A DNA stretch of 37,805 bases from Candidatus Gastranaerophilales bacterium. GTDB taxonomy: Bacteria; Cyanobacteriota; Vampirovibrionia; Gastranaerophilales; Gastranaerophilaceae. Below the pieces are notes generated by a model. That model was given only the letters and a program-made list of their open reading frames with translations, was not told the origin of the DNA and did not search any database. Position 1 is the stretch's first letter. Each line of letters opens with the position of its first letter. The stretch covers positions 1 to 37,805 of the forward strand of contig CANPWQ010000016.1 of NCBI GenBank assembly GCA_947584965.1, written 5' to 3'. Below are positions 1,092 through 37,490 of the stretch, one piece after another. A program made the translations under genes and the position numbers.

Positions 1092-1926
1092 TTATACCCT
1101 TGAATGAATATTGAGCCTCACCCGACATATAAACATCACGGTTAACATCATCTAAACTGCCGTCCCACTCTATTACAAGCTCACCGCTCGGAAGTTCAAC
1201 CGTTACTTTTTTATCACACAAATTCTTTAGTATACAGGTAACAACACTTGCACAAGCTCCCGTTCCGCAGGCCAGAGTTATTCCGCAGCCTCTTTCCCAT
1301 ACATCCAGTTTTATTCTGTCACGTGACAGTATTTTTATAAACTCAACATTTGTTTTTTCGGGAAATAAGTTATTTATTTCTATTTCCCTGCCGTATTTTA
1401 ATGCCGAATTTTTTGTATCTTCCTCCGTTATTATTACACAGTGCGGATTTCCCATGCTTACAGCAGACGCATTGAATTCTCTCTCTCGAGTTTTAACTTT
1501 AAAATCAAGATTATTTTCAACATTTACGGGGATTTTTAAAGGTTCTAAAATCGGTTTATTCATATTAACTTTGACTCTGCCGTCATCAAGAATTTTTGGA
1601 ATAATGACTCCCGCCTTTGTTTCAACGCTGAATTCTTTTTTATTAACATAACCTTTATTATAAACATATTTAGCAAAACACCTAATCCCGTTTCCGCACA
1701 TTTGCGCCATTGTTCCGTCAGAATTATAAAATATCCAACCGATATCTGTTTTTTCCGTGTTTTGATTTATTATAATCAGCCCGTCTGCCCCAATTCCGAA
1801 ATTTCTGTCACAAAGTTTCTTCGCCAATTCATCGGGAGTTTTATCAGTTTTTTTATATTCTTCCCAATCCAAAACTACAAAATCATTGCCAAGCCCTTGC
1901 ATTTTAGTAAAATTAATTTCGGTCAT
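1078..1926 (-). CDS. dapF: Diaminopimelate epimerase
   Basis: Converts LL- to meso-diaminopimelate, the penultimate step of lysine synthesis and the source of the peptidoglycan cross-linking residue. Length is 282 aa, typical. Both active-site cysteines are in place: C77 in MCGNGIRC and C220 in ACGTGACAS. The N-terminal MQGLGNDFVV motif and the SMGNPHCV segment are also typical. The start codon lies inside the end of the upstream glycosidase-like gene (14-bp overlap), which indicates translational coupling. This implies a meso-DAP-type cell wall. Confidence 0.97.
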   Translation of the reverse strand: MTEINFTKMQGLGNDFVVLDWEEYKKTDKTPDELAKKLCDRNFGIGADGLIIINQNTEKTDIGWIFYNSDGTMAQMCGNGIRCFAKYVYNKGYVNKKEFSVETKAGVIIPKILDDGRVKVNMNKPILEPLKIPVNVENNLDFKVKTREREFNASAVSMGNPHCVIITEEDTKNSALKYGREIEINNLFPEKTNVEFIKILSRDRIKLDVWERGCGITLACGTGACASVVTCILKNLCDKKVTVELPSGELVIEWDGSLDDVNRDVYMSGEAQYSFKGIIDLS

Positions 1927-3880
1927 GTTTCTTTTTTCTTTCTCTTTTTTTCTTTTTATCTTTATATCTTACCTCGGGATGATATTCTTTATCAGTCTGG
2001 TTTACTTTTACATCTCTTGTATCATAAGATTTATTAAATACCCTTGTTTTTAGCGCATCAATATATTCATCCGTCAAATGAGCATAATCAAATAATATAG
2101 CTCCTCGGGTATTAAATATTCTTGTTTTATGTATTTGCACAAGCAAATCTTCAAACGGTCCGCCCATAAAGGTTACAAATATTCCGGGATAAATTTGAGT
2201 ATAAATGCTCGTATTTTTAGCCACATCATTTAACAGCAAATCTGCGGTATTCCTGTCACCTGTTAATATCAATGGGGTTAAGCCATCTATATAATTACCG
2301 AATGACCAAACCCGCCAATTTTGCATTTTTGTCTGCATACTCTTTTTTAAATCCGGAAATATTACAGCAGTTAATAATACATTGTTAGGTTTTGTAATTT
2401 GCTGAACTTTTTTAACAAATTCCGAAATTTTATTCTGTCTGTATGAACTCCATAGTTCCCAATCTCCGCACCCGTAAGGTATATCTATCGGATCTATTCC
2501 GTACATTGACTTAAAATCATTACGGGCATACATAGTATATCCCCAGTTTGATTTTGCATAACTTGAATAAGAAGAATCTACCGTCTGCGGGTATCTTATA
2601 TAATCCAAATTTATACCGTCAGGTTTGTATTTTGTGACTATTTCATTCAATATTCCAAGTAAATATGTTTGAACTTGCGGATTTGCGGGGTCTAAGAAAT
2701 AACCGTTATGCTCTGACAATGATGGAACAGGATACAATGAATCATAATTAGCAAGCCTTTTATTCGCCCATAAAGGATATACGCTTAAAACATGATTAGG
2801 CGTATATTGCGGATTATCAATCCCCGCATAAAATGTTTCAAACCATATATGAATTTTCATTTTACGCTTATGGGCTTGTTTTATCCATATTTCTAACGGG
2901 TCAAAACCTTTAAATTCTTCTCTCTGCCAGATAACACCGTTAATTCGCATATAATCACTGGGGTATATTGTTTTTCCGTGAAAATAAGTTTCCAAAAATA
3001 TGTCAGTTATTCCTGCCGATTGTATTCTGTCAAGAGTCTTTTCTATCTCGGCAGGAGTTGTTTCTATCGGGCGAACCCATACCCCTTTTAACTCATTTGC
3101 ATTATATGGTATTGCATTTTTTATAGCGGAATTTAAGGCTTCCATTGCACTATTTATATATGTTTGAGTTTTTTCGGGTTTTTTCTCCGCTTTTCTTAAA
3201 TACTCTTTTGAACTTTCCAAAAATTCGCCGGCTTTTTTATCATTGTATAAAATATCAAACTTTTTGTAATATTCTACAAGTGAATTTACCTCGGTAAGTT
3301 TTTGCTTGGCAGCATACATAAGGCTTTCAGGGGTTAAAAATACTTTTATCATGCCTGTTGAATAATCAATATAAACTTTAGAACCGATTTGAATATTTTT
3401 AGTAATCCAAGTTTTAGCACTGCCATGCCCTGATATAACAAAACCGTTTTTAGGGATAATAGAATCCGCACCGTTTAATCTGACAACCATATTATTTTCA
3501 ACTATTGCTTCCGTGCCAAATTCGTTAGTTCCCGTCCGAAATCCGTATGATGGAGTATAAACAATTAACTGATTAGGCCCGCGCAAACCAGGGTAATATG
3601 AGTTGGGATTATTAATCTTTGACGGATCTATCGCACTATATGTTTTTTGTTCCTCCTGATATATTATTTCATCAGGCTTTGTCGGCAGAGTATAATTAAA
3701 CACTTTTTGATTTAATTCAAAAGGAATAGGTTCGTTTTTCACATTTACAGGAATATTTTGCTCTGCATTTGGAATATTTTCATTAACAAATGAGCGCATA
3801 TTATCCCTTAACTCTGAAGAACACACAGCGTTCTGCCCGATAAAAACAAATAAAAATAAAATCCCTAACAATCTTCTCAT
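1913..3880 (-). CDS. Exported GHL10-type glycosyl-hydrolase-like protein
   Basis: A 655-aa protein with an N-terminal signal peptide (MRRLLGILFLFVFIG, hydrophobic to about residue 16). Residues 40-250 form a region with no family I recognise. The part starting near residue 263 (ELKGVWVRP, then GITDIFLETYF, IHIWFETF and GINLDYIRYP near 420) is a TIM-barrel glycosidase-like domain of the GHL10/DUF187 family (YngK-like). The protein ends in a very basic Lys/Arg tail (KKKKRERKKK). Family members are exported and thought to act on envelope or exogenous glycans; the substrate is unknown. It is first in a run with dapF, so a cell-wall role is reasonable inference. The start follows AT-rich DNA shared with the divergent dnaJ-like gene. 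Confidence 0.85.
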   Translation of the reverse strand: MRRLLGILFLFVFIGQNAVCSSELRDNMRSFVNENIPNAEQNIPVNVKNEPIPFELNQKVFNYTLPTKPDEIIYQEEQKTYSAIDPSKINNPNSYYPGLRGPNQLIVYTPSYGFRTGTNEFGTEAIVENNMVVRLNGADSIIPKNGFVISGHGSAKTWITKNIQIGSKVYIDYSTGMIKVFLTPESLMYAAKQKLTEVNSLVEYYKKFDILYNDKKAGEFLESSKEYLRKAEKKPEKTQTYINSAMEALNSAIKNAIPYNANELKGVWVRPIETTPAEIEKTLDRIQSAGITDIFLETYFHGKTIYPSDYMRINGVIWQREEFKGFDPLEIWIKQAHKRKMKIHIWFETFYAGIDNPQYTPNHVLSVYPLWANKRLANYDSLYPVPSLSEHNGYFLDPANPQVQTYLLGILNEIVTKYKPDGINLDYIRYPQTVDSSYSSYAKSNWGYTMYARNDFKSMYGIDPIDIPYGCGDWELWSSYRQNKISEFVKKVQQITKPNNVLLTAVIFPDLKKSMQTKMQNWRVWSFGNYIDGLTPLILTGDRNTADLLLNDVAKNTSIYTQIYPGIFVTFMGGPFEDLLVQIHKTRIFNTRGAILFDYAHLTDEYIDALKTRVFNKSYDTRDVKVNQTDKEYHPEVRYKDKKKKRERKKKHDRN

Positions 3881-3969
3881 ACTTAATATGTTAATACAAA
3901 ATTAAAAAAAGATTAACTATTAAAGAATTAAAGATTTTTTATATTAATATTATGATAAGGAGATTTTAA

Positions 3970-9533: not shown

Positions 9534-12056
9534 GTGAAAGAAAATAAAAAAGCATATCTTACCATACATGGACACTTCTATCAACCGCCAAGAGAAAATC
9601 CTTGGCTGGAAACAATTGAAGTACAGGATAGTGCTAATCCTTTTCACGACTGGAATGCAAGAGTTACTGCGGAATGCTATACACCTAACTCCGTATCAAA
9701 AATAGTTACTCAAGATAATAAAATTCTTGACATAGTAAACAATTACGCTTATATCAGCTTTAATTTCGGTCCAACCCTTTTGTCGTGGATGGAGCATTAC
9801 AGCCCTTACTCTTACGACAGAATAATTAAAGCGGATGTGGAAAGCGCAGGAAAAAATAACGGGCATGGTAATGCTATTGCCCAGGTTTATAACCATATAA
9901 TAATGCCGCTTGCCAATAAAGACGATAAATACACACAAATTATATGGGGAATAAAAGATTTTCAATACAGGTTCGGCAGAAAGCCTGAGGGAATGTGGCT
10001 TGCCGAAACCGCATGCGACGACGCAACATTGGAAGCATTAATTGACTGCGGTATTAAATTTACAATTCTTTCGCCTTTCCAGGCAAAAAGTGTAAGAAAA
10101 TTAAATTCTGATGACGATTGGAGTGATGTAAGCTGGGGGAATATAGACCCTGCAAGAGCATACAGATATTTCACGAAATCCGATAAATCAAAATATATAG
10201 ATTTATTCTTTTATGACGGTTCAATTTCAAAATCCGTTGCATTTGATGAATTATTAACGGACGGAAATAAGTTTATTTCAAGATTAAAAGACGGAATATC
10301 CGACTTAAGAGATTATAATCAGCTTGTAAATATAGCAACAGACGGCGAAAGCTACGGACACCATACAAAATTCGGTGATATGGCGCTTTCTTATATATTA
10401 AAAGTTAAAGCAGAAGACGAGGGATTTGAAATTACCAATTATGCCAATTATTTAGAGCAGGAAGAGGTAAAATATGAGGTCGATATAAAAGATGTTTCAT
10501 CTTGGAGCTGTTCTCACGGGGTGGGGCGTTGGTGTGATGACTGCGGATGTTCAACGGGCGGGGGCTACGGCTGGAACCAAAAATGGCGTAAGCCATTGCG
10601 TGAAGCGCTTGATTATGTTAGAGATGAATTAAGAAAAATATTTGAAGAATACGGTTCCAAATATTTTAAAAATGTTTGGGCTGCCAGAAATGACTATATT
10701 GACGTCATTTTAGACAGAAGCAAAAATTCAATAAATCTATTTCTTGATAAGCACGCAAATTATAAATTAGACCACTCGGAAACCGTTAAAGCATTAAAAT
10801 TAATGGAAATGCAAAGACAGGCAATGCTTATGTATACAAGCTGCGGTTGGTTTTTCTCCGAAATATCGGGGATAGAAACAACTCAAATAATGAAATATGC
10901 AGCACGTGCAATGCAGCTGGCTCAATATTTTTCCAATAAAGACATAGAAACAGGTTTTTTAGAAATCTTATCACGCGCACAAAGCAATATACAAGGATTT
11001 GGAAGCGGAAAAGACGTTTATGAAAGACTTGTTAAACCCTCCATTGTTTCAATTAAACAAATCGGGGCGCTTTGGGCAATATCTTCCATGCACAATAATT
11101 TTGAAGATTTTACAACACTATACTGTTATGATATAAAAAGACACTACAGCAAATACGTATCAAACGGCTCAACAGCATTCAGTGCGGGAAGAATTGAAAT
11201 ATCCTCCAAAATTACGCTTGAAAAAGCAGACTTTTTCTTTGCAGCTCTTCAATTTCCCGAAGGTGATTTCCACTGCGCAATTAAACGCTATGACGATTGT
11301 GAAAATTTGCAGGATATTACTAAAAAACTTTGTGAAATATACTTAAATAATCCCGTAACTGAAATCATACGTGCGCTTGATAAAATATTCGGTAACGAAT
11401 ACTTTACTTTAAAAGATGTAATTATTGAAGACAGAAGCAAAATATTGTTATCCTCACTTAAAGACAAATTGGGTAAATTTTCAAATACATACAGAGAAGT
11501 TTATAATGAGGGTAAGAGCTTCATTATGCAGCTAATAAACCTTGGAATAAGCGTCCCTGTTGAATACAAGCTGGCGGCACAATATACTCTTACTAATGAT
11601 TTCAACGAAATCTTCCAAGATTGTATTAATCTGACGGATGAAGCTACAATTCAAAAAGGTTTGGATATTTTAAAAGAAGCACAGGCTTTTCAAATTGACA
11701 TTGATAAAACTCTGACCTGTAATATATTTTCAAATCAGATACAAAAAGCAATTTATAACTTTATGAAAACTTTTGAAATGCACAGACTCGATAATATTTT
11801 AAAGATGTTTGAATGCGCTGCCAAGTTAAATTTAAAAGTAGATATATCCGAAGCTCAAAATATGTATTTCAATAAAATTTATTCTAAATTCACAAAACTG
11901 CTTGATAATGCGGCTCTTGAACAGACAAACATTACTGAAATAAGAGAATATTTGTTCTCACTATTAATTTTAGGCGAATATTTGAATATTAATACGGATT
12001 TTTATAAATCATCAATTTTAAAATTAACTTCCGAGAGAATAAAAATTAATAATTAA
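9534..12056 (+). CDS. Glycoside hydrolase family 57 protein (GH57 + DUF3536)
   Basis: 840-aa two-domain enzyme of the alpha-amylase/alpha-mannosidase-like GH57 group. The N-terminal barrel has the family motifs HGHFYQPP (residues 12-19), GMWLAETACDD with the nucleophile E158, and ATDGESYGHH with the acid/base D270. From about residue 340 the sequence matches the DUF3536 type, long helical, with WSCSHGVGRWCDDCGC at the junction. It is predicted cytoplasmic, with no signal peptide. GH57 members act on alpha-glucans such as glycogen; the precise activity here is unknown. The start is GTG, chosen because GGGAGAG lies 4 nt upstream. No glycogen genes adjoin it. Its stop overlaps the convergent coaE by 4 bp. 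Confidence 0.9.
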   Translation: MKENKKAYLTIHGHFYQPPRENPWLETIEVQDSANPFHDWNARVTAECYTPNSVSKIVTQDNKILDIVNNYAYISFNFGPTLLSWMEHYSPYSYDRIIKADVESAGKNNGHGNAIAQVYNHIIMPLANKDDKYTQIIWGIKDFQYRFGRKPEGMWLAETACDDATLEALIDCGIKFTILSPFQAKSVRKLNSDDDWSDVSWGNIDPARAYRYFTKSDKSKYIDLFFYDGSISKSVAFDELLTDGNKFISRLKDGISDLRDYNQLVNIATDGESYGHHTKFGDMALSYILKVKAEDEGFEITNYANYLEQEEVKYEVDIKDVSSWSCSHGVGRWCDDCGCSTGGGYGWNQKWRKPLREALDYVRDELRKIFEEYGSKYFKNVWAARNDYIDVILDRSKNSINLFLDKHANYKLDHSETVKALKLMEMQRQAMLMYTSCGWFFSEISGIETTQIMKYAARAMQLAQYFSNKDIETGFLEILSRAQSNIQGFGSGKDVYERLVKPSIVSIKQIGALWAISSMHNNFEDFTTLYCYDIKRHYSKYVSNGSTAFSAGRIEISSKITLEKADFFFAALQFPEGDFHCAIKRYDDCENLQDITKKLCEIYLNNPVTEIIRALDKIFGNEYFTLKDVIIEDRSKILLSSLKDKLGKFSNTYREVYNEGKSFIMQLINLGISVPVEYKLAAQYTLTNDFNEIFQDCINLTDEATIQKGLDILKEAQAFQIDIDKTLTCNIFSNQIQKAIYNFMKTFEMHRLDNILKMFECAAKLNLKVDISEAQNMYFNKIYSKFTKLLDNAALEQTNITEIREYLFSLLILGEYLNINTDFYKSSILKLTSERIKINN

Positions 12057-12637
12057 AGCTGTTTTATAATATTATTAACTTGATTTCTTAAATTAATAAA
12101 ATCAGAATTGTTGTAAATAATATAGTCTGATTTTTTAATCTTTTCATCTTCTTTTTCTTGAGAGTTTATACGAATTCTTGCATAACTTTCGGTATAATTA
12201 TTTCTCTCCATTAACCTTTTAAGCCTTACATCTTCATCAGCAGATACAAAAATAATTTTATCAAATTGCTTTTCAATTCCCGCCTCAAAAAGCAACGGAA
12301 CGGAAACAAAAATCATTTTTTCACTTCTGTTTTTAATTAAAAATTCATTAACTTTTTCATTTATTTTAGGATGTAAAATCGCTTCCAATTTAGTTCGTTT
12401 ACTATCATCGGCGAATACTACTTTGCCAAATTTTTCACGTGAAATATTACCTTTTTCATCAAATATATCATCATACCCGAATACATCATTAATTGTTTTA
12501 ATTACATCTAAGTCGCAAGACAGTATAAAATGATTAATTTTATCAGTATCAATCACTTTATATCCCAAAGATAAAAGAATTTTCTCGACTTGCGACTTTC
12601 CGCTTGCTATATTTCCCGTTATTGCAATTTTTTTCAT
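12053..12637 (-). CDS. coaE: Dephospho-CoA kinase
   Basis: Last step of CoA biosynthesis: phosphorylates the 3'-OH of dephospho-CoA. 194 aa, standard length. P-loop GNIASGKS at residues 8-15, the DTDKINH substrate segment, LHPKI and VSVPLLFEAG lid/CoA region, and RLKRLMERN near the C-terminus. No Shine-Dalgarno lies upstream of the ATG, but a perfect TATAAT lies 6 nt away. It may therefore be transcribed from its own leaderless promoter although the thioredoxin-like gene ends only 26 bp upstream in the same direction. Confidence 0.96.
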   Translation of the reverse strand: MKKIAITGNIASGKSQVEKILLSLGYKVIDTDKINHFILSCDLDVIKTINDVFGYDDIFDEKGNISREKFGKVVFADDSKRTKLEAILHPKINEKVNEFLIKNRSEKMIFVSVPLLFEAGIEKQFDKIIFVSADEDVRLKRLMERNNYTESYARIRINSQEKEDEKIKKSDYIIYNNSDFINLRNQVNNIIKQL

Positions 12638-12643
12638 AAATTA

Positions 12644-12672
12644 ATTATAATCACTAATAAAAATTACTGCAA
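12644..12672 (-). promoter_or_regulatory. Candidate leaderless promoter of coaE
   Basis: TATAAT (12644-12649) lies 6 nt from the coaE ATG with a possible -35 TTGCAG (12667-12672) 17 nt upstream, overlapping the end of the thioredoxin-like gene. The interval to the ATG contains no purine-rich ribosome binding site. Confidence 0.5.
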
Positions 12673-13028: not shown

Positions 13029-13508
13029 CTACTTTCTAATAGTAAGACGTTCAAGCCACCTTACAAATCTTGTAGGTTTATTTTCCTTTTCGCGTGTAAT
13101 GGAGTCAACTAACACTGTTTTAGCCCCCAAAAGTTTTCCCGCCAATATATCGGTCAATGGTCTATCACCAATAACAACCGTATTTTCAGGCAAGATGTTT
13201 ACGGATTTTAAAAATTCTCTCATAACTTTCGGATTAGGTTTATTTGCATTACCTATTACCGGAAAATCTGACATCGCCTGTACTTTTGAGATATAATCTT
13301 CTCTTTTATTATTACTTATTATTGCAATAACGAAGTTTTGTTTAAGTTCTTTAAGAAGTTCTAATACTTTATTAGGATATTCACCTGATTTTGAGGGCAT
13401 TACGGTACTATCCAAATCAAATAAAACAGCATTTATCCCTATTGATTTTAATTCTTTAAAATCAATATCAAAAAGCGAAACAAGATTATAATCGGGTTTT
13501 AAAATCAT
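13029..13508 (-). CDS. YqeG-family HAD phosphatase
   Basis: 159-aa HAD-superfamily subfamily IIIA phosphatase. Motif I is DLDST (D31, D33), motif II is IISNN, and motif IV is GDRPLTD. The family is widespread in Firmicutes and Cyanobacteria; some members act on phosphatidylglycerophosphate, but the substrate here is not certain. The ATG overlaps the stop of the upstream U32 gene by 4 bp, indicating translational coupling. Confidence 0.9.
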   Translation of the reverse strand: MILKPDYNLVSLFDIDFKELKSIGINAVLFDLDSTVMPSKSGEYPNKVLELLKELKQNFVIAIISNNKREDYISKVQAMSDFPVIGNANKPNPKVMREFLKSVNILPENTVVIGDRPLTDILAGKLLGAKTVLVDSITREKENKPTRFVRWLERLTIRK

Positions 13509-14755
13509 CTTAAATTTTTAACTCCTATTGTTCTTGCAAGGGCGTATTTATAATCTTTCGGGCTTTTTGAAAGTTCTATTAAAAATTCATCATTTGTATT
13601 GCATAAAGATTTTTCTTCGCTTGATTTTTCGTCAAAAATCCTTGTAACTTTTGCCTTAAAGCATTCATCAGGCGTAATTATTTCAATCTCATCATTTAAT
13701 AAAAATTTATTTTTAGTAAGGACTTTGAACATATTATCCTTTTTATCAAGGAAAACGCACAAGCAGTCAGCCCCTGCCAGCCCCTTTGAAATATCATAGC
13801 TGTAACCCTCGCTATCGGGTTTATGCAAATAAAAGCCTGTTGTATAGCCGCGGTTGCCTATTTTTATAATCTCGTTATAATTTTCTTCTTTGTTGATTTT
13901 TCCTTTTGTAAGGTAATCATCTATTGCTTTTCTGTAGGCTTTAGCAACGGCAGAAACATAATAAAGACTTTTTGTTCTGCCTTCTATTTTAAATGAATCT
14001 ATACCCAAATCAATTAATTCAGGCAGATAGTTAATAAGGGCTAAGTCCTTTGGGCTTAGGATGTGAGTACCCTGCCCGTTTTCTTCTATGTCAAAATATT
14101 CCCCCTCTCTTGTTTCCTCAACAAGTTTATAACTCCACCTGCAAGATTGAGAACAGTTACCGTGGTTGGCTTTGCGTTCTCCTTTTGTCATATAATCGCT
14201 TATTAAACAGCGCCCTGAAAATGATACACATTGAGCTCCGTGGACAAATACTTCATATTCAATATCAGGGACATTCTTTTTAATTTCGGCTATTTGCTCA
14301 AGTGATAAATCTCTTGATAAAACTACCCTTTGCGCACCGAGGTCGCGCCAAAATTTAACGGCTTCAGAGTTTAAGATATTAGTTTGAGTGCTTACGTGCA
14401 AAGGTATTTTAGGCATATATTTTTTTATTATGTTATATACACCGAAGTCTGAAAACAATATAGCGTCAGGGCTTGCGTCTTTAATACGCTCGGCGCACTC
14501 AATCATAGATTTTATATCGTTATCATAAGCAAAAATATTTAATGTTAAATAAACTTTTTTACCAAAAGAATGAGCCAAGTCAATACAGTCTTTTAAGTTG
14601 TCAATTGTTATAAGCTCACCTTTTCGCATAGCTCTAAGGCTGAAATCAACCATCCCCAAATAAACGGCATCTGCGCCGTAGTGAATGGCATAATCCAGTT
14701 TTTCTCTGCTCCCTGCGGGCAGGAGAAGTTCAGGTCTTTTTGTGTTTAATTCCAT
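13505..14755 (-). CDS. U32 peptidase-family protein (TrhP/RlhA type)
   Basis: 416 aa. The N-terminal barrel begins ELLLPAGSREKLDYAIHYGADAVY. The U32 signature region follows (EVFVHGAQCVSFSGRCLIS, then NHGNCSQSCRWSY), with the four conserved cysteines that likely bind an Fe-S cluster. Despite the name, characterised bacterial members (TrhP, RlhA) carry out tRNA or rRNA hydroxylation. At this length, with a C-terminal beta domain, it is closest to the TrhP-like group, so a role in tRNA wobble-uridine hydroxylation is plausible but unproven. It is coupled to yqeG. No Shine-Dalgarno; TAAAAT (14762-14767) lies 6 nt from the ATG, a possible leaderless start. Confidence 0.85.
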   Translation of the reverse strand: MELNTKRPELLLPAGSREKLDYAIHYGADAVYLGMVDFSLRAMRKGELITIDNLKDCIDLAHSFGKKVYLTLNIFAYDNDIKSMIECAERIKDASPDAILFSDFGVYNIIKKYMPKIPLHVSTQTNILNSEAVKFWRDLGAQRVVLSRDLSLEQIAEIKKNVPDIEYEVFVHGAQCVSFSGRCLISDYMTKGERKANHGNCSQSCRWSYKLVEETREGEYFDIEENGQGTHILSPKDLALINYLPELIDLGIDSFKIEGRTKSLYYVSAVAKAYRKAIDDYLTKGKINKEENYNEIIKIGNRGYTTGFYLHKPDSEGYSYDISKGLAGADCLCVFLDKKDNMFKVLTKNKFLLNDEIEIITPDECFKAKVTRIFDEKSSEEKSLCNTNDEFLIELSKSPKDYKYALARTIGVKNLR

Positions 14756-14767
14756 ACCATTATTTTA

Positions 14768-16342
14768 CTACAAACTTTTTTCATCCGATTTATTTAGCGT
14801 AAACCCTTTTGTAAAGGCATTTTTAATGTAATAATTTTTATCGGCGGAAGGAAGATAATATTTTTCTTTCAATTTATCATTTATTAGATACAAAATATAC
14901 CATTGTGTTCCGTAAACTGCTTTATAATTATTCGGAATATAGTCATTTATAACAGCACTAACGGGAATTAATATATAATCGGGTTTATATGGCTCTGATA
15001 GTATCTCTTCCCAATCGTTTTGCGCATTATAAAACTTATCAAGAAGTTCTTTTTCTTTATTAAAATAAACTTCTTCATAACGCCCATCCATATATATTAA
15101 GTTATTCGGGAACAATTTATAAGCTATATAGCTTCCTAAATCCAAAGGAGCAAGCACTCTGCCTTTTAAATCATTGATTTTTAAGAACTCAACCTCTTTT
15201 ACGGGTTGTTCATGTAAATAATACAAATCAGGTTTAATCATAAAAAATACTATTAATGAACCGGCAAAAAATAAAGGCATAAGTCCATAAGGAAGTATAT
15301 TTTCTGTTATTCTTACACAGTCTTGCGTTTTTTGTTTTTTTGCAGGTTCTTTTATATGCCCGTAAATAAAATTAAAGTAATTATTGTGTCCGGCGCAAAT
15401 ATCTTTATACAAAAATATAATTGAAGTTATTATAAAAAACGGTGTGTTTTTTATGTATTTATAAGAAAAGTAAGCGCAAACAAAAAGCAGAATATACTTT
15501 GTAAAATCATTTTTATAATCTTTAATGTTAAAAATCAGAACAATAAAAAATATTGAATACAATATTTTAAACCAAGTAAATAAACCGCTTTGACTTAAAA
15601 ACGGGCTTATCCATTCGGTTATATTGGGTCGCGGCATAGTTGACGCCATAAAAATAAATTTAACGTAGTCAATGCCGTATGGATTAATAAACATTACCGC
15701 AAAGCACACAAAAAGAGTAAATATATATTTTTTAAAAGGTTTTTTATTAAGCGCCTCGCCTAATGAATATATTGCTAATATTCCGAGCCCAGCAACGCAG
15801 CCGCCATGGGCGTTTGCCCAAATTAACATTAAAACTGGCAATATAAATAAAAGTTTATTTTCTCCTTTATTCCTGACTCTCTCAAGTATGTATATAAATA
15901 TTGAAAAAAATAAGAACGTGAAGAAATGACATCTTAATGCAGAACTAAATAACGTCGGCAGAGATACTAAAGAATAACTAAATAAAAATACATCAAGAAG
16001 TTTTACACCTTTATCAATTTCAAGTTTTGCGGTTTTGAATGTAAAATAAAAGATTAAAAATACTATAAGTATCCTTGCCGAAAATATTCCCCAATATCCG
16101 AAATGATTTAAAATAAAAGAAAATAAAACACTCGCACCCCACTCATGGTCAAGCCAAACGTGAGTGGGAGTGTAAGAAAATACATCTGTTTTTAATATGT
16201 GTCCTAACTGCCAAAAAGCGTCACCCTGTAATATCCTTGCCCAAAAGTCAGGGTCAATGTTATTAGACATAAATGCCCATATTGTTATCATTAATAAAAC
16301 ATATATATAAAAACATATATTATATTTTAATTCTTTATTCAT
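14768..16342 (-). CDS. Multi-spanning GT-C-like glycosyltransferase
   Basis: 524 aa with about ten hydrophobic segments over the first 390 residues and a soluble C-terminal part containing KPDYILIPVSA. The first extracytoplasmic loop after TM1 has the acidic pattern NIDPDFWARILQGDAFW and HVWLDHEWG, which resembles the catalytic Asp/His loop of GT-C membrane glycosyltransferases that use lipid-linked sugars. The donor and acceptor cannot be inferred. No other glycan genes are adjacent. There is no Shine-Dalgarno; a TTGACT/TAACAT promoter ends 6 nt before the ATG. It precedes the U32 gene by 12 bp and is probably first in that transcript. Confidence 0.65.
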   Translation of the reverse strand: MNKELKYNICFYIYVLLMITIWAFMSNNIDPDFWARILQGDAFWQLGHILKTDVFSYTPTHVWLDHEWGASVLFSFILNHFGYWGIFSARILIVFLIFYFTFKTAKLEIDKGVKLLDVFLFSYSLVSLPTLFSSALRCHFFTFLFFSIFIYILERVRNKGENKLLFILPVLMLIWANAHGGCVAGLGILAIYSLGEALNKKPFKKYIFTLFVCFAVMFINPYGIDYVKFIFMASTMPRPNITEWISPFLSQSGLFTWFKILYSIFFIVLIFNIKDYKNDFTKYILLFVCAYFSYKYIKNTPFFIITSIIFLYKDICAGHNNYFNFIYGHIKEPAKKQKTQDCVRITENILPYGLMPLFFAGSLIVFFMIKPDLYYLHEQPVKEVEFLKINDLKGRVLAPLDLGSYIAYKLFPNNLIYMDGRYEEVYFNKEKELLDKFYNAQNDWEEILSEPYKPDYILIPVSAVINDYIPNNYKAVYGTQWYILYLINDKLKEKYYLPSADKNYYIKNAFTKGFTLNKSDEKSL

Positions 16343-16348
16343 ATGTAT

Positions 16349-16378
16349 ATGTTATTAATTTATACTTCACGGAGTCAA
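16349..16378 (-). promoter_or_regulatory. Candidate promoter of the GT-C-like gene
   Basis: TTGACT (16373-16378) and TAACAT (16349-16354) are separated by 18 nt on the minus strand. The -10 is 6 nt from the ATG, consistent with a leaderless or near-leaderless mRNA. The -10 match is weak. Confidence 0.35.
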
Positions 16379-17079: not shown

Positions 17080-17107
17080 TTGCGCGAAGCAAAATTTATG
17101 TTAATAT
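17080..17107 (+). promoter_or_regulatory. Candidate extended -10 promoter of the ricT-like gene
   Basis: TTGCGC (17080-17085), a 16-nt spacer, then TGT-TAATAT (17099-17107, extended -10), 6 nt before the ATG at 17114. No Shine-Dalgarno, so a leaderless transcript is likely. Confidence 0.4.
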
Positions 17108-17113
17108 ATTTTT

Positions 17114-18043
17114 ATGTTTGCAGTTAATTTAATAAAAAATAAACAATGTCCGCTGGATATTCCGGAACATATTGAAGTAAAACATGGAGATATGGTTATA
17201 ATCCTGACAGAAAAAGGTGAAGAAGTTGTACAGGCTTATAAAGTACCGCCACAAGTAGAGAGCATATTAATCAGAAAAAAAGTTCCATCTGTGCCTCTGC
17301 TAAGAGTAATGACGGATGAAGACAAAAAATCTTATGAAGAATTGAAAATCATTGAAGAACAAGGATATAAAAATTGTCTTGAATTAATAAAACAACATAA
17401 TCTGCAAATGAATTTAATCCAATGCAAATACACTTTTGACAGGCGCAAAGTAACTTTTTATTACACGGCTCCGGAAAGAGTTGATTTTAGAGAACTGCTT
17501 AAGGATTTAACAAAAGTATTTAAAAGGGTCCGTATAGATTTAAAACATATAGGGGTTAGAGATGAAACGTCACTGTGCTGCGGAAACGGATTATGCGGAC
17601 GCCCGTTTTGCTGCTGCACATTTAAACGCCAGTTTGATTCAATAAATATAAAACTGGCTCACGACCAGAGTATGCCCATAACACCAAGCAAAATTTCGGG
17701 AACCTGCGGTAGATTGTTGTGCTGTTTAAATTATGAATACAAAAATTACATAGAAACAGCAAAAGAAATGGTTCCGATTGGCTCGGGCGTTATGACCTCA
17801 GAAGGTGTAGGAAGAGTTTGCGGGCTTAATATTCTTACAAATAATGTATCGGTTAAATTAGCCGACGGAAAAATAAAAGAATTTCCGTCTATTGAAGTGG
17901 AAATGATAGATACCGACGTAAATATAGAAATAGATGTTAACAGTGCAGGTTATAAATATGCTTCAATGCAGCAAGCAAGTGAAGAGAATATAGATATAAA
18001 ACAATATGAGGATGATAGAAACAGTTCTACCGAGAACATTTAA
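17114..18043 (+). CDS. ricT: PSP1-domain protein, RicT/YaaT-like
   Basis: 309-aa cytoplasmic protein with the PSP1 domain. The conserved cysteines are all present: C155-C156, C161, C166-C168 (CCGNGLCGRPFCCC) and C198, C203-C204 (TCGRLLCC). In Bacillus, RicT (YaaT) joins RicA and RicF in a complex carrying [4Fe-4S] clusters that aids RNase Y-dependent mRNA maturation; these cysteines fit Fe-S binding. RicA and RicF are not nearby, so the partner set here is unknown. The acidic tail (residues 280-309) is unlike the core. It overlaps the convergent histidine kinase gene by 17 bp. Confidence 0.88.
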   Translation: MFAVNLIKNKQCPLDIPEHIEVKHGDMVIILTEKGEEVVQAYKVPPQVESILIRKKVPSVPLLRVMTDEDKKSYEELKIIEEQGYKNCLELIKQHNLQMNLIQCKYTFDRRKVTFYYTAPERVDFRELLKDLTKVFKRVRIDLKHIGVRDETSLCCGNGLCGRPFCCCTFKRQFDSINIKLAHDQSMPITPSKISGTCGRLLCCLNYEYKNYIETAKEMVPIGSGVMTSEGVGRVCGLNILTNNVSVKLADGKIKEFPSIEVEMIDTDVNIEIDVNSAGYKYASMQQASEENIDIKQYEDDRNSSTENI

Positions 18044-19028
18044 ACGGGAATTCAATTATAAATTCCGTAAATCCGTCTTTACTTTTAACCGAAATATCAC
18101 CGCCATGAGCCAATACTATTTGCCTTGAAAGATAAAGCCCTAATCCTGTGCCTGATTTTTTAAACTTTGACTGTCCAGTGTAATACTTATGAAAAATCAA
18201 ATCCAAATCTTCTTCAGAAATACCGCAGCCTTTATTTTTTACCGAAATTTTTACGTTTTGTTCATCTTTAACAGTCGATATATGAATTTTTGAATTATTA
18301 CAGCTAAATGATATGGCGTTTTGCAAAATGTTTTTAATTACTCTTTTCATTTGAAAAGCGTCAAATATTAACGATTTAAAATCAGTATTCCCAAAATCAC
18401 TTATAATATCAATATTAGAATTGGAAGCAATCGGCTGCATTTCTTTAATTATAGAGCTTAAGAAATCTTTTAAATTATTTTCGGCAAAATTAAGTTTTAA
18501 TTTGTCTTGCTCTAATTTATATACCTCAAGCATATTATCAATCAGCTCTTTTAATTCCAGATTGGAAGATTTCATAAGATTAAGAACTTCAAACTGCTTT
18601 TCATTCAATGCCCCAAAACGCTCCTCCAATAAATAATTTAAGGAATTTAACTCGGCAATAACAGGCACTTTCATATCATGAGTTAATGTTGCGGCAAATT
18701 CTTCTTTAACTGTCCTCAATTGTTTTTCACGGCTCAATATTTCTTCTAAAGACAGATTTTTTTTAGCAAGAGTCGATTGATATTCTTTTATCATCATTTC
18801 ACGGTCATAAATAGTTTCAATTAACCTGTTTATTGAATTTTCAAGTAATTTATCATTTAACTCGGAAATTCTGACATTAATATCACCATATCTTAACCTT
18901 TTAACGGCAAGTAAAATCTTAGAAAAATCAGAACAAGACTTTTTGTATTTTTTATATAAACTGATGAAAAAGCAAAGTCCTGTTATTAATATAACCGTTA
19001 ATATAAATAATATAATATATAAAATCAT
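18027..19028 (-). CDS. Membrane-anchored sensor histidine kinase (orphan)
   Basis: 333 aa. One N-terminal membrane helix (residues 2-24), a short HAMP-like/coiled-coil segment (about 38-108), then HisKA with the phospho-acceptor H117 in ATLTHDMKVPV. The HATPase domain has the N box QNAISFSCN, G1 NKGCGISE and G2 SGTGLGLYLSRQ. It lacks any obvious extracellular sensor domain and PAS domain, so it is not an obvious NblS/Hik33 homologue. No response regulator adjoins it. There is no Shine-Dalgarno; TGTTATAAT lies 7 nt from the ATG. The 3' end overlaps the ricT-like gene. Confidence 0.92.
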   Translation of the reverse strand: MILYIILFILTVILITGLCFFISLYKKYKKSCSDFSKILLAVKRLRYGDINVRISELNDKLLENSINRLIETIYDREMMIKEYQSTLAKKNLSLEEILSREKQLRTVKEEFAATLTHDMKVPVIAELNSLNYLLEERFGALNEKQFEVLNLMKSSNLELKELIDNMLEVYKLEQDKLKLNFAENNLKDFLSSIIKEMQPIASNSNIDIISDFGNTDFKSLIFDAFQMKRVIKNILQNAISFSCNNSKIHISTVKDEQNVKISVKNKGCGISEEDLDLIFHKYYTGQSKFKKSGTGLGLYLSRQIVLAHGGDISVKSKDGFTEFIIEFPFKCSR

Positions 19029-19035
19029 AAAAAAA

Positions 19036-19044
19036 ATTATAACA
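19036..19044 (-). promoter_or_regulatory. Extended -10 of a likely leaderless histidine kinase mRNA
   Basis: TGT-TATAAT on the minus strand, 7 nt from the ATG at 19026-19028. The extended -10 compensates for the lack of a good -35, which would fall in the tsf terminator. Confidence 0.5.
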
Positions 19045-19046
19045 TA

Positions 19047-19075
19047 AAAGACGGGGATAAAAATTCCCCGTCTTT
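19047..19075 (-). terminator. Terminator after tsf
   Basis: AAAGACGGGGA (19047-19057) pairs perfectly with TCCCCGTCTTT (19065-19075) around a 7-nt loop. The following minus-strand bases are T-rich (CTTTTATG). It closes the rpsB-tsf transcript. Confidence 0.85.
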
Positions 19076-19093
19076 CAGATAATATAAGTTTAA

Positions 19094-28062: not shown

Positions 28063-28965
28063 TTAATTTGCACGCGGATGAGCAAGCTCATAAGAATGTT
28101 TTAAGCGTTCCGCAGAAACATGAGTATAGATTTGAGTATTACTTATGCTGCTATGACCTAAAAGCTCCTGAACGACTCTTAAATCCGCACCTTTTTCCAG
28201 CATTTTTGTTGCAAAACTGTGCCTAAACACATGCGGGGTAACATGTTTAGGCAGTTCAATATTATTCATAACATCATTGATTGCTATTCTTACGCTTTGA
28301 GGCTGAAGCCTGTATCCTGTTTTATTTATGAATACAGGAGAGTTAACAGACAATTCACAGCCCTTTGCAATTAATCCCCTTACCGTTTTTATATATGTTT
28401 CCAAGAATTTTTTTGCTCTTTCGGATACAAGCACAATCCTTTCTTTTGCGCCCTTACCAAAAACTTTTATTTCGTTTTCCTCTAAGTTTAAATTGTCAAA
28501 ATTCAAATTACTGAGTTCTGATATACGCATTCCCGTCGCATATAAAAGCTCCAGTATAGCTCTGTTTCTGTATCCTGCAGGAGTATCTATTTTAACATTA
28601 TTCATAACCTGTTCTATCTCTGCCTCGGTTAAAAATTCGGGCAGGGTTTTACCTCTTTTTGGCGCATGCACTCCCATTGCAGGATTTGCCTCCACTATTC
28701 TTTCCCTGTATAAAAAGCGGTAAAATGTCCTTAGTGAAGCTATTTTTCTTGCAGTTGTTGTCTTTGAATAATTAAACTGCTGAATATATAAAAGGTACTC
28801 TCTTATTACGTTATAAGTTACTTCTTTTATATCTCTTTCATTAAGCCAGATTAAAAAACTCAAAATGTCAGAGCTGTATGCCCTAACCGTATATTTTGAA
28901 AAATTTTTTTCAACTTCAATATACAGCTTAAATTCTTGTAAATACTTTTTAGATAACTCGTTCAT
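28063..28965 (-). CDS. XerC/XerD-type tyrosine recombinase
   Basis: 300 aa, the standard Xer length, with the SAM-like N-terminal domain (residues 5-90). The full catalytic set is present: R147 (GMRISEL), K171 (FGKGAKER), H245 and R248 (HVFRHSF), H271 (LGHSS) and Y280 (YTHV). It likely resolves chromosome dimers at dif with FtsK, and XerC versus XerD cannot be settled from sequence alone. No attachment site, phage gene or integrated element is visible, so a resident Xer is favoured over a mobile-element integrase. No Shine-Dalgarno; TAAAAT (28974-28979) lies 8 nt from the ATG. Confidence 0.92.
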   Translation of the reverse strand: MNELSKKYLQEFKLYIEVEKNFSKYTVRAYSSDILSFLIWLNERDIKEVTYNVIREYLLYIQQFNYSKTTTARKIASLRTFYRFLYRERIVEANPAMGVHAPKRGKTLPEFLTEAEIEQVMNNVKIDTPAGYRNRAILELLYATGMRISELSNLNFDNLNLEENEIKVFGKGAKERIVLVSERAKKFLETYIKTVRGLIAKGCELSVNSPVFINKTGYRLQPQSVRIAINDVMNNIELPKHVTPHVFRHSFATKMLEKGADLRVVQELLGHSSISNTQIYTHVSAERLKHSYELAHPRAN

Positions 28966-29125
28966 TTGCTAAAATTTTAAAAAAATTTTAAAAAAAAATC
29001 AAATTATTTCATATTTTTAAGCATATATTAAGAAACATTAAGCCTGTTGAAATCATGTAAAAAACCATGGTTACATGGGTTTTGGGATTATTGAATACTT
29101 AAATTTTTGAATACTAAACAAATTG
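28966..29125. other. AT-rich intergenic region with dyad and direct repeats
   Basis: CATGTAA (29054-29060) and TTACATG (29071-29077) form a dyad around the 10-bp palindrome AACCATGGTT (29063-29072). Two copies of TTGAATACT follow at 29091-29099 and 29107-29115, 16 bp start to start. All lie upstream of the yggS promoter. No ORF is seen. Confidence 0.45.
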
Positions 29126-33489: not shown

Positions 33490-33705
33490 TTATATATTTT
33501 TCATTAATTCACTTATATCAATTTCAAGTATTTTGGAAATATCATAAACTAAAAATACGGAAGGTGTCTGTATACCTCTTTCTATTAAACTGATTGTACT
33601 TTCGCACACATTTACTTTTTCTGCAAGCTCTGCTTGTGTAAGGTTTTTTCTGTATCTTTCCGCTTTTAAATTTCTTGCAAATATTTTGTTTCTTTCATCT
33701 TTCAT
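33490..33705 (-). CDS. XRE-family transcriptional regulator
   Basis: 71-aa single-domain helix-turn-helix protein of the Cro/CI type. The HTH has LTQAELAEKVNVCESTISLIERG (residues about 23-45), followed by TPSVFLVYDISKILEI. No extra sensor domain. It is divergent from the prepilin-like gene across a 118-bp region full of inverted repeats, suggesting it represses itself and/or that gene. A perfect TATAAT lies 7 nt from the ATG and there is no Shine-Dalgarno, so the mRNA is probably leaderless, as in phage CI repressors. Confidence 0.93.
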   Translation of the reverse strand: MKDERNKIFARNLKAERYRKNLTQAELAEKVNVCESTISLIERGIQTPSVFLVYDISKILEIDISELMKNI

Positions 33706-33712
33706 AAAAGAA

Positions 33713-33741
33713 ATTATACTTGCTTGACAAATTTTTCTTAA
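33713..33741 (-). promoter_or_regulatory. Leaderless promoter of the XRE gene
   Basis: TATAAT (33713-33718) with TTAAGA (33736-33741) 17 nt upstream, 7 nt from the ATG. Confidence 0.55.
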
Positions 33742-33823: not shown

Positions 33824-34498
33824 ATGAGAAAGAGCGCATTTACACTCGCAGAAATTTTGATTACACTTGTAATTATAGGTGTAATAGCCGCAATGTGCGT
33901 TCCTGTTATATTTACAAACTATCAGGAGCAGGAAAGAGCTGCAAAAGTCAAGAAAGCATATTCAACAATATCAAGAGCTTTCAATTTATTAAAAGTTTCA
34001 GGGGCTGAATATCTGTTAGAGGATACAACATTAACAAATAATCCTGAATCCTTGTTTGATTTTTTTGAACATTATATTAAACCTAATCTTATTACAATCA
34101 AAATATGCAAAGAAACAAAAGGATGCTGGAGTAACGACGATACAAAATTTTTAAACGGGAAAAAAATAGATTTTGAAGTCAGCAGACCAGGTATAGGAAT
34201 AGGTTGGGATATTGTTTCATGCATATTAAATGACGGAACATTTGTAACATTCAATATGTATAATCAGGGAGATACAAAAATATATGCCAAAATTAACTAT
34301 GACGGAGCTGCTTTAAGAATAGCTTTTGATATAAACGGAGCAAAAAAACCAAATACAATAGGCAAAGATATATTTTATATGCATTACATTCCGGGCAGGG
34401 GCGTTGTTCCTTCGTATATAGATGCTGCAGAAGAAATTGAAAAAGATTGTACAAAAACCGGAAAGGGGTTAAGCTGCACAATTAAATATTTGAAATAA
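33824..34498 (+). CDS. Type IV prepilin-like protein
   Basis: 224 aa. The N-terminus is a class III signal, MRKSA/FTLAEILITLVIIGVIAAM, with the conserved Glu five residues into the mature part. The residue before cleavage is Ala, where Gly is usual. After the helix, the globular domain (about 30-224) has four or more cysteines (CKETKGC, CILN, DCTKTGKGLSC) that could form disulfides. This fits a pilin or pseudopilin-like secreted protein of the kind abundant in Vampirovibrionia. No other pilus genes are nearby. It may be controlled by the divergent XRE protein. Shine-Dalgarno GGGAG. Confidence 0.87.
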   Translation: MRKSAFTLAEILITLVIIGVIAAMCVPVIFTNYQEQERAAKVKKAYSTISRAFNLLKVSGAEYLLEDTTLTNNPESLFDFFEHYIKPNLITIKICKETKGCWSNDDTKFLNGKKIDFEVSRPGIGIGWDIVSCILNDGTFVTFNMYNQGDTKIYAKINYDGAALRIAFDINGAKKPNTIGKDIFYMHYIPGRGVVPSYIDAAEEIEKDCTKTGKGLSCTIKYLK

Positions 34499-37417: not shown

Positions 37418-37490
37418 CGCGCCCTGAAGGACTCGAACCCTCGACATCCGGTTTTGGAGACCGACGTTCTACCAACTGAACTAAGGACGC
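37418..37490 (-). tRNA. trnW: tRNA-Trp (CCA anticodon)
   Basis: Minus-strand cloverleaf: acceptor GCGTCCT/AGGGCGC, D stem GTTC/GAAC, anticodon stem with loop CTCCAAA (anticodon CCA), T arm with TTCGAGT, discriminator G. The 3' CCA is not encoded. Its place between rpmG and secE is the conserved one. Confidence 0.97.

Follow-up and report, generated by a model that had tools for sequence, protein, structure and literature searches.

Several start codons in this stretch of DNA (37,805 nt, analysed as a whole and here called the window) are directly preceded by a hexamer resembling the -10 element of a bacterial promoter, which raises the question of whether these genes are transcribed from the start codon itself as leaderless mRNAs. 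The DNA comes from the Gastranaerophilales, gut-dwelling relatives of cyanobacteria (Melainabacteria/Vampirovibrionia), and a leaderless mechanism with a start-adjacent -10 box is known from Actinobacteria. We put the probability at about 90% that the window genes with such a box are leaderless, with a sigma70-type promoter at the ATG, a reading built from sequence comparison. In what follows, d counts the bases that separate a box from its start codon, and the boxes of the window were read from exact or TAnnnT matches before starts.

The first-pass annotation had reported TATAAT 6-7 nt before four ATGs, and all four proved to be exact matches on the reverse strand: at 88-93 before a partial gene (ATG at 79-81, d=6), at 12644-12649 before coaE (12053-12637, d=6), at 19036-19041 before a histidine kinase gene (18027-19028, d=7) and at 33713-33718 before a gene for an XRE-family regulator (33490-33705, d=7). 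The kinase box, which had been credited with an extended TG, does carry TG at the extended -10 position and forms the element TGTTATAAT (19036-19044, -), while the coaE box has a weak -35 hexamer, TTTGCA, at a distance of 18 bp. Related boxes had been named before four further genes and were likewise found, all at d=6: TAATAT (1063-1068, -) before an oligopeptide ABC transporter ATPase gene (106-1056; Pfam ABC_tran and oligo_HPY), TAAAAT in TTTGTAGTAAAAT (14762-14767, -) before a U32 peptidase gene (13505-14755), TAACAT (16349-16354, -) before a membrane protein gene (14768-16342) that the annotation named GT-C and that has no match in Pfam, and the extended element TGTTAATAT (TGtTAATAT; 17099-17107, +) before ricT (17114-18043; Pfam PSP1). 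The GT-C box also has a -35-like TTGACT 18 bp upstream. One box missing from that earlier list, TAACAT at 3888-3893 (-), lies at d=7 before the ATG of a GHL10 glycosyl-hydrolase-like gene (1913-3880; Pfam GHL10). The box proposed for an Xer-type recombinase gene (28063-28965) is present as TAAAAT at d=8 (28974-28979, -), but it is borderline, since its relatives mostly have d=8-9 and some are led and carry a Shine-Dalgarno (SD) site. The four genes with exact TATAAT had also been described as lacking a clear ribosome binding site, and indeed no AGGA, GGAG or GAGG occurs at SD distance before any listed box gene of the window; SD sites occur at other window genes, namely the dnaJ-like gene (3970), trx (12969) and L1 (35968).

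One alternative is that these boxes are chance matches, TATAAT being common in A/T-rich upstream DNA. The background in the sampled genome is about 0.005 per start and position, and approximately 0.4 exact hexamers are thus expected in the window (40 starts x 2 positions); the figure of 0.1 given earlier was too low by about four-fold. A further exact TATAATN6ATG, at 2290-2304 (+) of the window, falls within a gene and is presumably fortuitous. Set against this local background, the four exact boxes observed are still unlikely (P of 4 or more about 8e-4).

The lack of a peak at 6-7 nt in a genome-wide plot of distances had been named as one refuting outcome. We examined a 750-kb sample of stretches (43%) from the genome of the window (74 contigs totalling 1.73 Mb; GC content of the sample 32.5%), along with pattern counts over the whole genome. 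Each long ORF was assigned its first ATG as start, which gave 657 starts; this rule is wrong for some genes. The peak is there: TATAAT occurs at none of these starts at d=4 and 5, at 17 at d=6, 8 at d=7 and 3 at d=8, with a mean of 3.3 per position at d=9-38, and the probability of the d=6 peak arising by chance is about 7e-8. Chance is likewise contradicted by the counts for the family, in which d=6 exceeds d=9 by a factor of 2.2 overall and is the higher of the two in each of the 62 genomes, and by the retention of the box in orthologues. As a general explanation we regard it as already refuted and extremely improbable, and single weak boxes may be chance matches.

The same sample supports the earlier claim that two classes of start coexist, one with SD sites and one without, in which a -10 box is locked at 6-7 nt. 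Starts of the SD class show a GGAG/AGGA peak 5-9 nt upstream. When genes are split by SD presence, those without SD contribute 16, 8 and 3 TATAAT at d=6, 7 and 8 and those with SD contribute zero, so that none of the 27 genes with TATAAT at d=6-8 has an SD; apart from one operon-internal gene at d=2, no SD gene has TATAAT anywhere at d=2-8. An unsupervised motif model, free to choose its position and run on the two groups separately, recovered ATGnTAtAAT from the SD-less genes; its expected counts were 54 at d=6 and 20 at d=7, and no other distance exceeded 9. In SD genes a similar motif was scattered over d=13-46, as expected of promoters for led mRNAs. Motif and peak were both absent from three controls (internal ATGs, windows shifted by 30 nt and column-shuffled sequences). 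Depending on the motif run, an adjacent box was assigned to 69-78 of 656 genes (about 11%).

Upstream of these boxes the remaining parts of a promoter can be recognised. TTGACA occurs at 5 of the 657 starts at d=29, exactly 17 bp upstream of a box at d=6, and at 0-2 starts at every other distance. Among 68 box-aligned genes, a TTGACA-like hexamer (4 or more of its 6 positions matching) stands at a 17-bp spacer in 18, compared with about 2.5 for spacers outside 16-18; TGn precedes the box in 21. The fixed -10 box with a -35 hexamer 17 bp upstream indicates sigma70-type promoters with their start site at the A of the ATG. The excess of adjacent TATAAT is seen before ATG and not before GTG or CTG; TTG starts have 43 TATAAT at d=6 vs 34-35 at d=3, 9 and 12. 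Raw TATAAT counts at d=7, taken regardless of gene context, show no excess, and a distant family sample (G045, 37.6% GC) has 3 and 2 TATAAT at d=6 and 7, a weak peak at most.

A second alternative is that the A/T-rich stretch acts as a translation enhancer, unstructured or bound by S1, on an mRNA with a normal leader made from a promoter further upstream. S1 binding has been offered as an alternative for A/U biases upstream of SD-less starts (PMC5397173), and SD-less starts with no adjacent box do occur in the 750-kb sample. A generic A/U enhancer, however, predicts neither a -10 consensus with TGn nor a fixed distance nor a -35 hexamer 17 bp further up, all of which characterise the conserved element, and the kinase gene is separated from any upstream promoter by a strong hairpin. 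We consider this explanation very unlikely. With regard to the SD-less starts of the sample, most have no adjacent -10 box, and some of them are wrong first ATGs. This group outnumbers the leaderless group and may include a third class of initiation.

Comparison of orthologues shows how far the arrangement has been kept: in nearly all orthologues compared for ricT, the histidine kinase and U32, and partially for coaE, Xer and XRE. In the first three genes, box and spacing are retained in 27-29 of 28-30 orthologues per gene while the flanks diverge. For example, TGnTAnnnT precedes the ATG in 29 of 30 genus orthologues of ricT, in which sequence further upstream is little conserved; the same element lies 5-8 nt before the ATG in 29 of 30 kinase orthologues (57-100% identity), and TAnnnT is found at d=6-8 in 27 of 28 orthologues of U32. 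No SD was found in the orthologues of these three genes; the SD controls tsf (21 sequences) and trx (5) have an SD in all and an adjacent box in none. The partial cases include XRE, where 5 of 11 relatives have TAnnnT at d=6-8, and coaE, whose nearest relatives are Candidatus Gastranaerophilales MAGs. The coaE pattern is mixed: of 20 relatives, 9 have TAnnnT within the same range of d and 7 have an SD-like motif, some of them within operons. Xer is mixed as well, and a few of its relatives have the same promoter at a greater distance, with an SD site between it and the start. In those other genera of the family that were tested, ricT lacks a box at d=6-8, and in other families of the order it is leaderless-like in some (L277, L289, L296) and SD-led in others. 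These mixed patterns of coaE, Xer and ricT indicate that the start state turns over gene by gene.

The orthologues also bear on a third alternative, namely that the boxes are true promoters and translation begins further downstream, at an in-frame codon served by a separate SD, leaving a short leader. The start codons are computational and some first ATGs are certainly not starts; one ORF of the window, with its start at 37447, opens inside a tRNA-like sequence. On the other hand, orthologues of coaE, ricT and U32 align from their first residues, and the ATP-binding loop of coaE begins at about residue 8. Furthermore, in kinase orthologues with a longer or shorter N-terminus the ATG still follows the box, the two moving in step by -9 to +12 nt. 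We therefore judge a downstream start to be highly improbable.

Some of these promoter regions have additional features. The kinase extended -10 element is abutted by a terminator-like hairpin with a 13-bp stem (19045-19077, -; -20.1 kcal/mol, z -6.2), which ends directly before it, and this layout recurs in many orthologues with differing stem sequences. At the U32 promoter (14762-14774, -; compared over loci L213-L239) a strongly conserved TTTGTAGTA block lies just upstream of the -10 box and extends into it. Its conservation exceeds what TGn requires, and the block is possibly an operator or a special promoter subtype. Upstream of the XRE gene (33713-33735, -), almost all of the relatives shown retain TGTCAA, which on the forward strand reads TTGACA and could be the -35 of a promoter for the divergent prepilin-like gene at 33824; the two promoters may thus overlap. 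At locus L211 (G000, contig C12:23644-23671), two divergent genes have ATGs 22 bp apart and overlapping -10 boxes within ATTATATAAT, each 6 nt from its start, a predicted minimal bidirectional leaderless promoter. Such compact divergent pairs on ATTATATAAT were found in 2 of 60 family genomes (the second is L212), and are thus rare.

Leaderless transcription is the simplest account of the layout of the box genes. Position, sequence, enrichment and SD exclusion are direct observations, as are the -35 spacing, the ATG preference and the conservation among orthologues; the last three, like the extended -10 TG, agree with leaderless transcription. The predicted promoter would consist of a TTGACA-like -35, a 17-bp spacer, often TGn, and then TAtAAT; RNA polymerase would start 7-8 nt past the -10 box, at the A of the ATG or at most one base away from it. 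The resulting mRNA would lack both a 5' leader and an SD site, and the ribosome would have to start on a 5'-terminal AUG, as it does for leaderless mRNAs elsewhere, where initiation is probably by 70S ribosomes or assisted by IF2. We infer from this layout where transcription actually starts and how the ribosome binds, and ribosome loading in the Gastranaerophilales is read across from other bacteria. For about 11% of the genes in the genome, the mRNA thus probably begins at the start codon itself, judging from the box assignments.

To gauge how widespread the arrangement is, whole-genome counts of TATAATN6ATG were compared with the same pattern at d=9, which was chosen as control, a reversed pattern being misleading in some cyanobacterial genomes. 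The 62 genomes of the window's family hold 7441 matches at d=6 vs 3356 at d=9, and the ratio is nowhere lower than 1.4. Other enriched families are f12 (2.24), f16 (4.0) and f20 (3.6), with f9 weakly so (1.34), whereas large photosynthetic families lie near 1 (f18 1.03, f17 0.92, f28 1.09). Pooling 64 genomes outside f1, f9, f10, f12, f16, f19, f20 and f23 gives 1840 vs 1784, and no d=6 excess is detectable in the pooled photosynthetic families. Ratios above 1 also occur in a few small families where counts are low, including one that is photosynthetic (f30, 13 vs 3). No tested member of the enriched families has Photo_RC genes, which do occur in eight genomes from other families. We give even odds to the proposal that a sizeable leaderless class characterises the non-photosynthetic Cyanobacteriota and is weakly developed or missing in their photosynthetic relatives, with single genes (Xer, coaE, ricT) switching between SD-led and leaderless forms as the promoter shifts relative to the start.

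Leaderless genes of this design have been reported from Deinococcus-Thermus, where a TANNNT -10 motif 6-7 bp before the ORF is reported to act as promoter (PMC12340547). That system shares the distance and the coexistence with GGAG SD starts, but it covers nearly one third of genes and mostly only the outer T, A and T are invariant; here, from sequence alone, we find about 11% of genes, the full TAtAAT, low GC and an excess before ATG only. Extracts of the survey by Zheng et al. (2011; PMC3160421) describe TA-led leaderless genes predicted across several bacterial phyla and resemble our data in having a TA-like signal some 12 bp ahead of the start, in the TAtAAT with a TG peak in low-GC genomes and in the turnover of signal type between orthologues; in these extracts Cyanobacteria are placed among the clades rich in 'atypical' genes, and Melainabacteria are not mentioned. 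Within the same phylum, leaderless transcripts occur in the photosynthetic Synechococcus elongatus UTEX 2973, in which only 19 gene TSSs were called leaderless (PMC6091082). Searches of the PMC literature, with subscription literature lying outside their scope, found no joint mention of 'leaderless' with Melainabacteria or Vampirovibrio, and for 'leaderless' with Cyanobacteriota only a sponge microbiome study that uses each word once. The mechanism is already known, and what is new is its occurrence in this lineage, where we found it undescribed.

These results extend a known minority class of starts to a gut-bacterial order for which little genetics exists, and its reach probably includes other non-photosynthetic Cyanobacteriota. 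They supply a rule for calling gene starts in the Gastranaerophilales and predict transcription starts to the base, and Xer, coaE and ricT offer series of close orthologues in which led and leaderless forms of the same gene can be compared.
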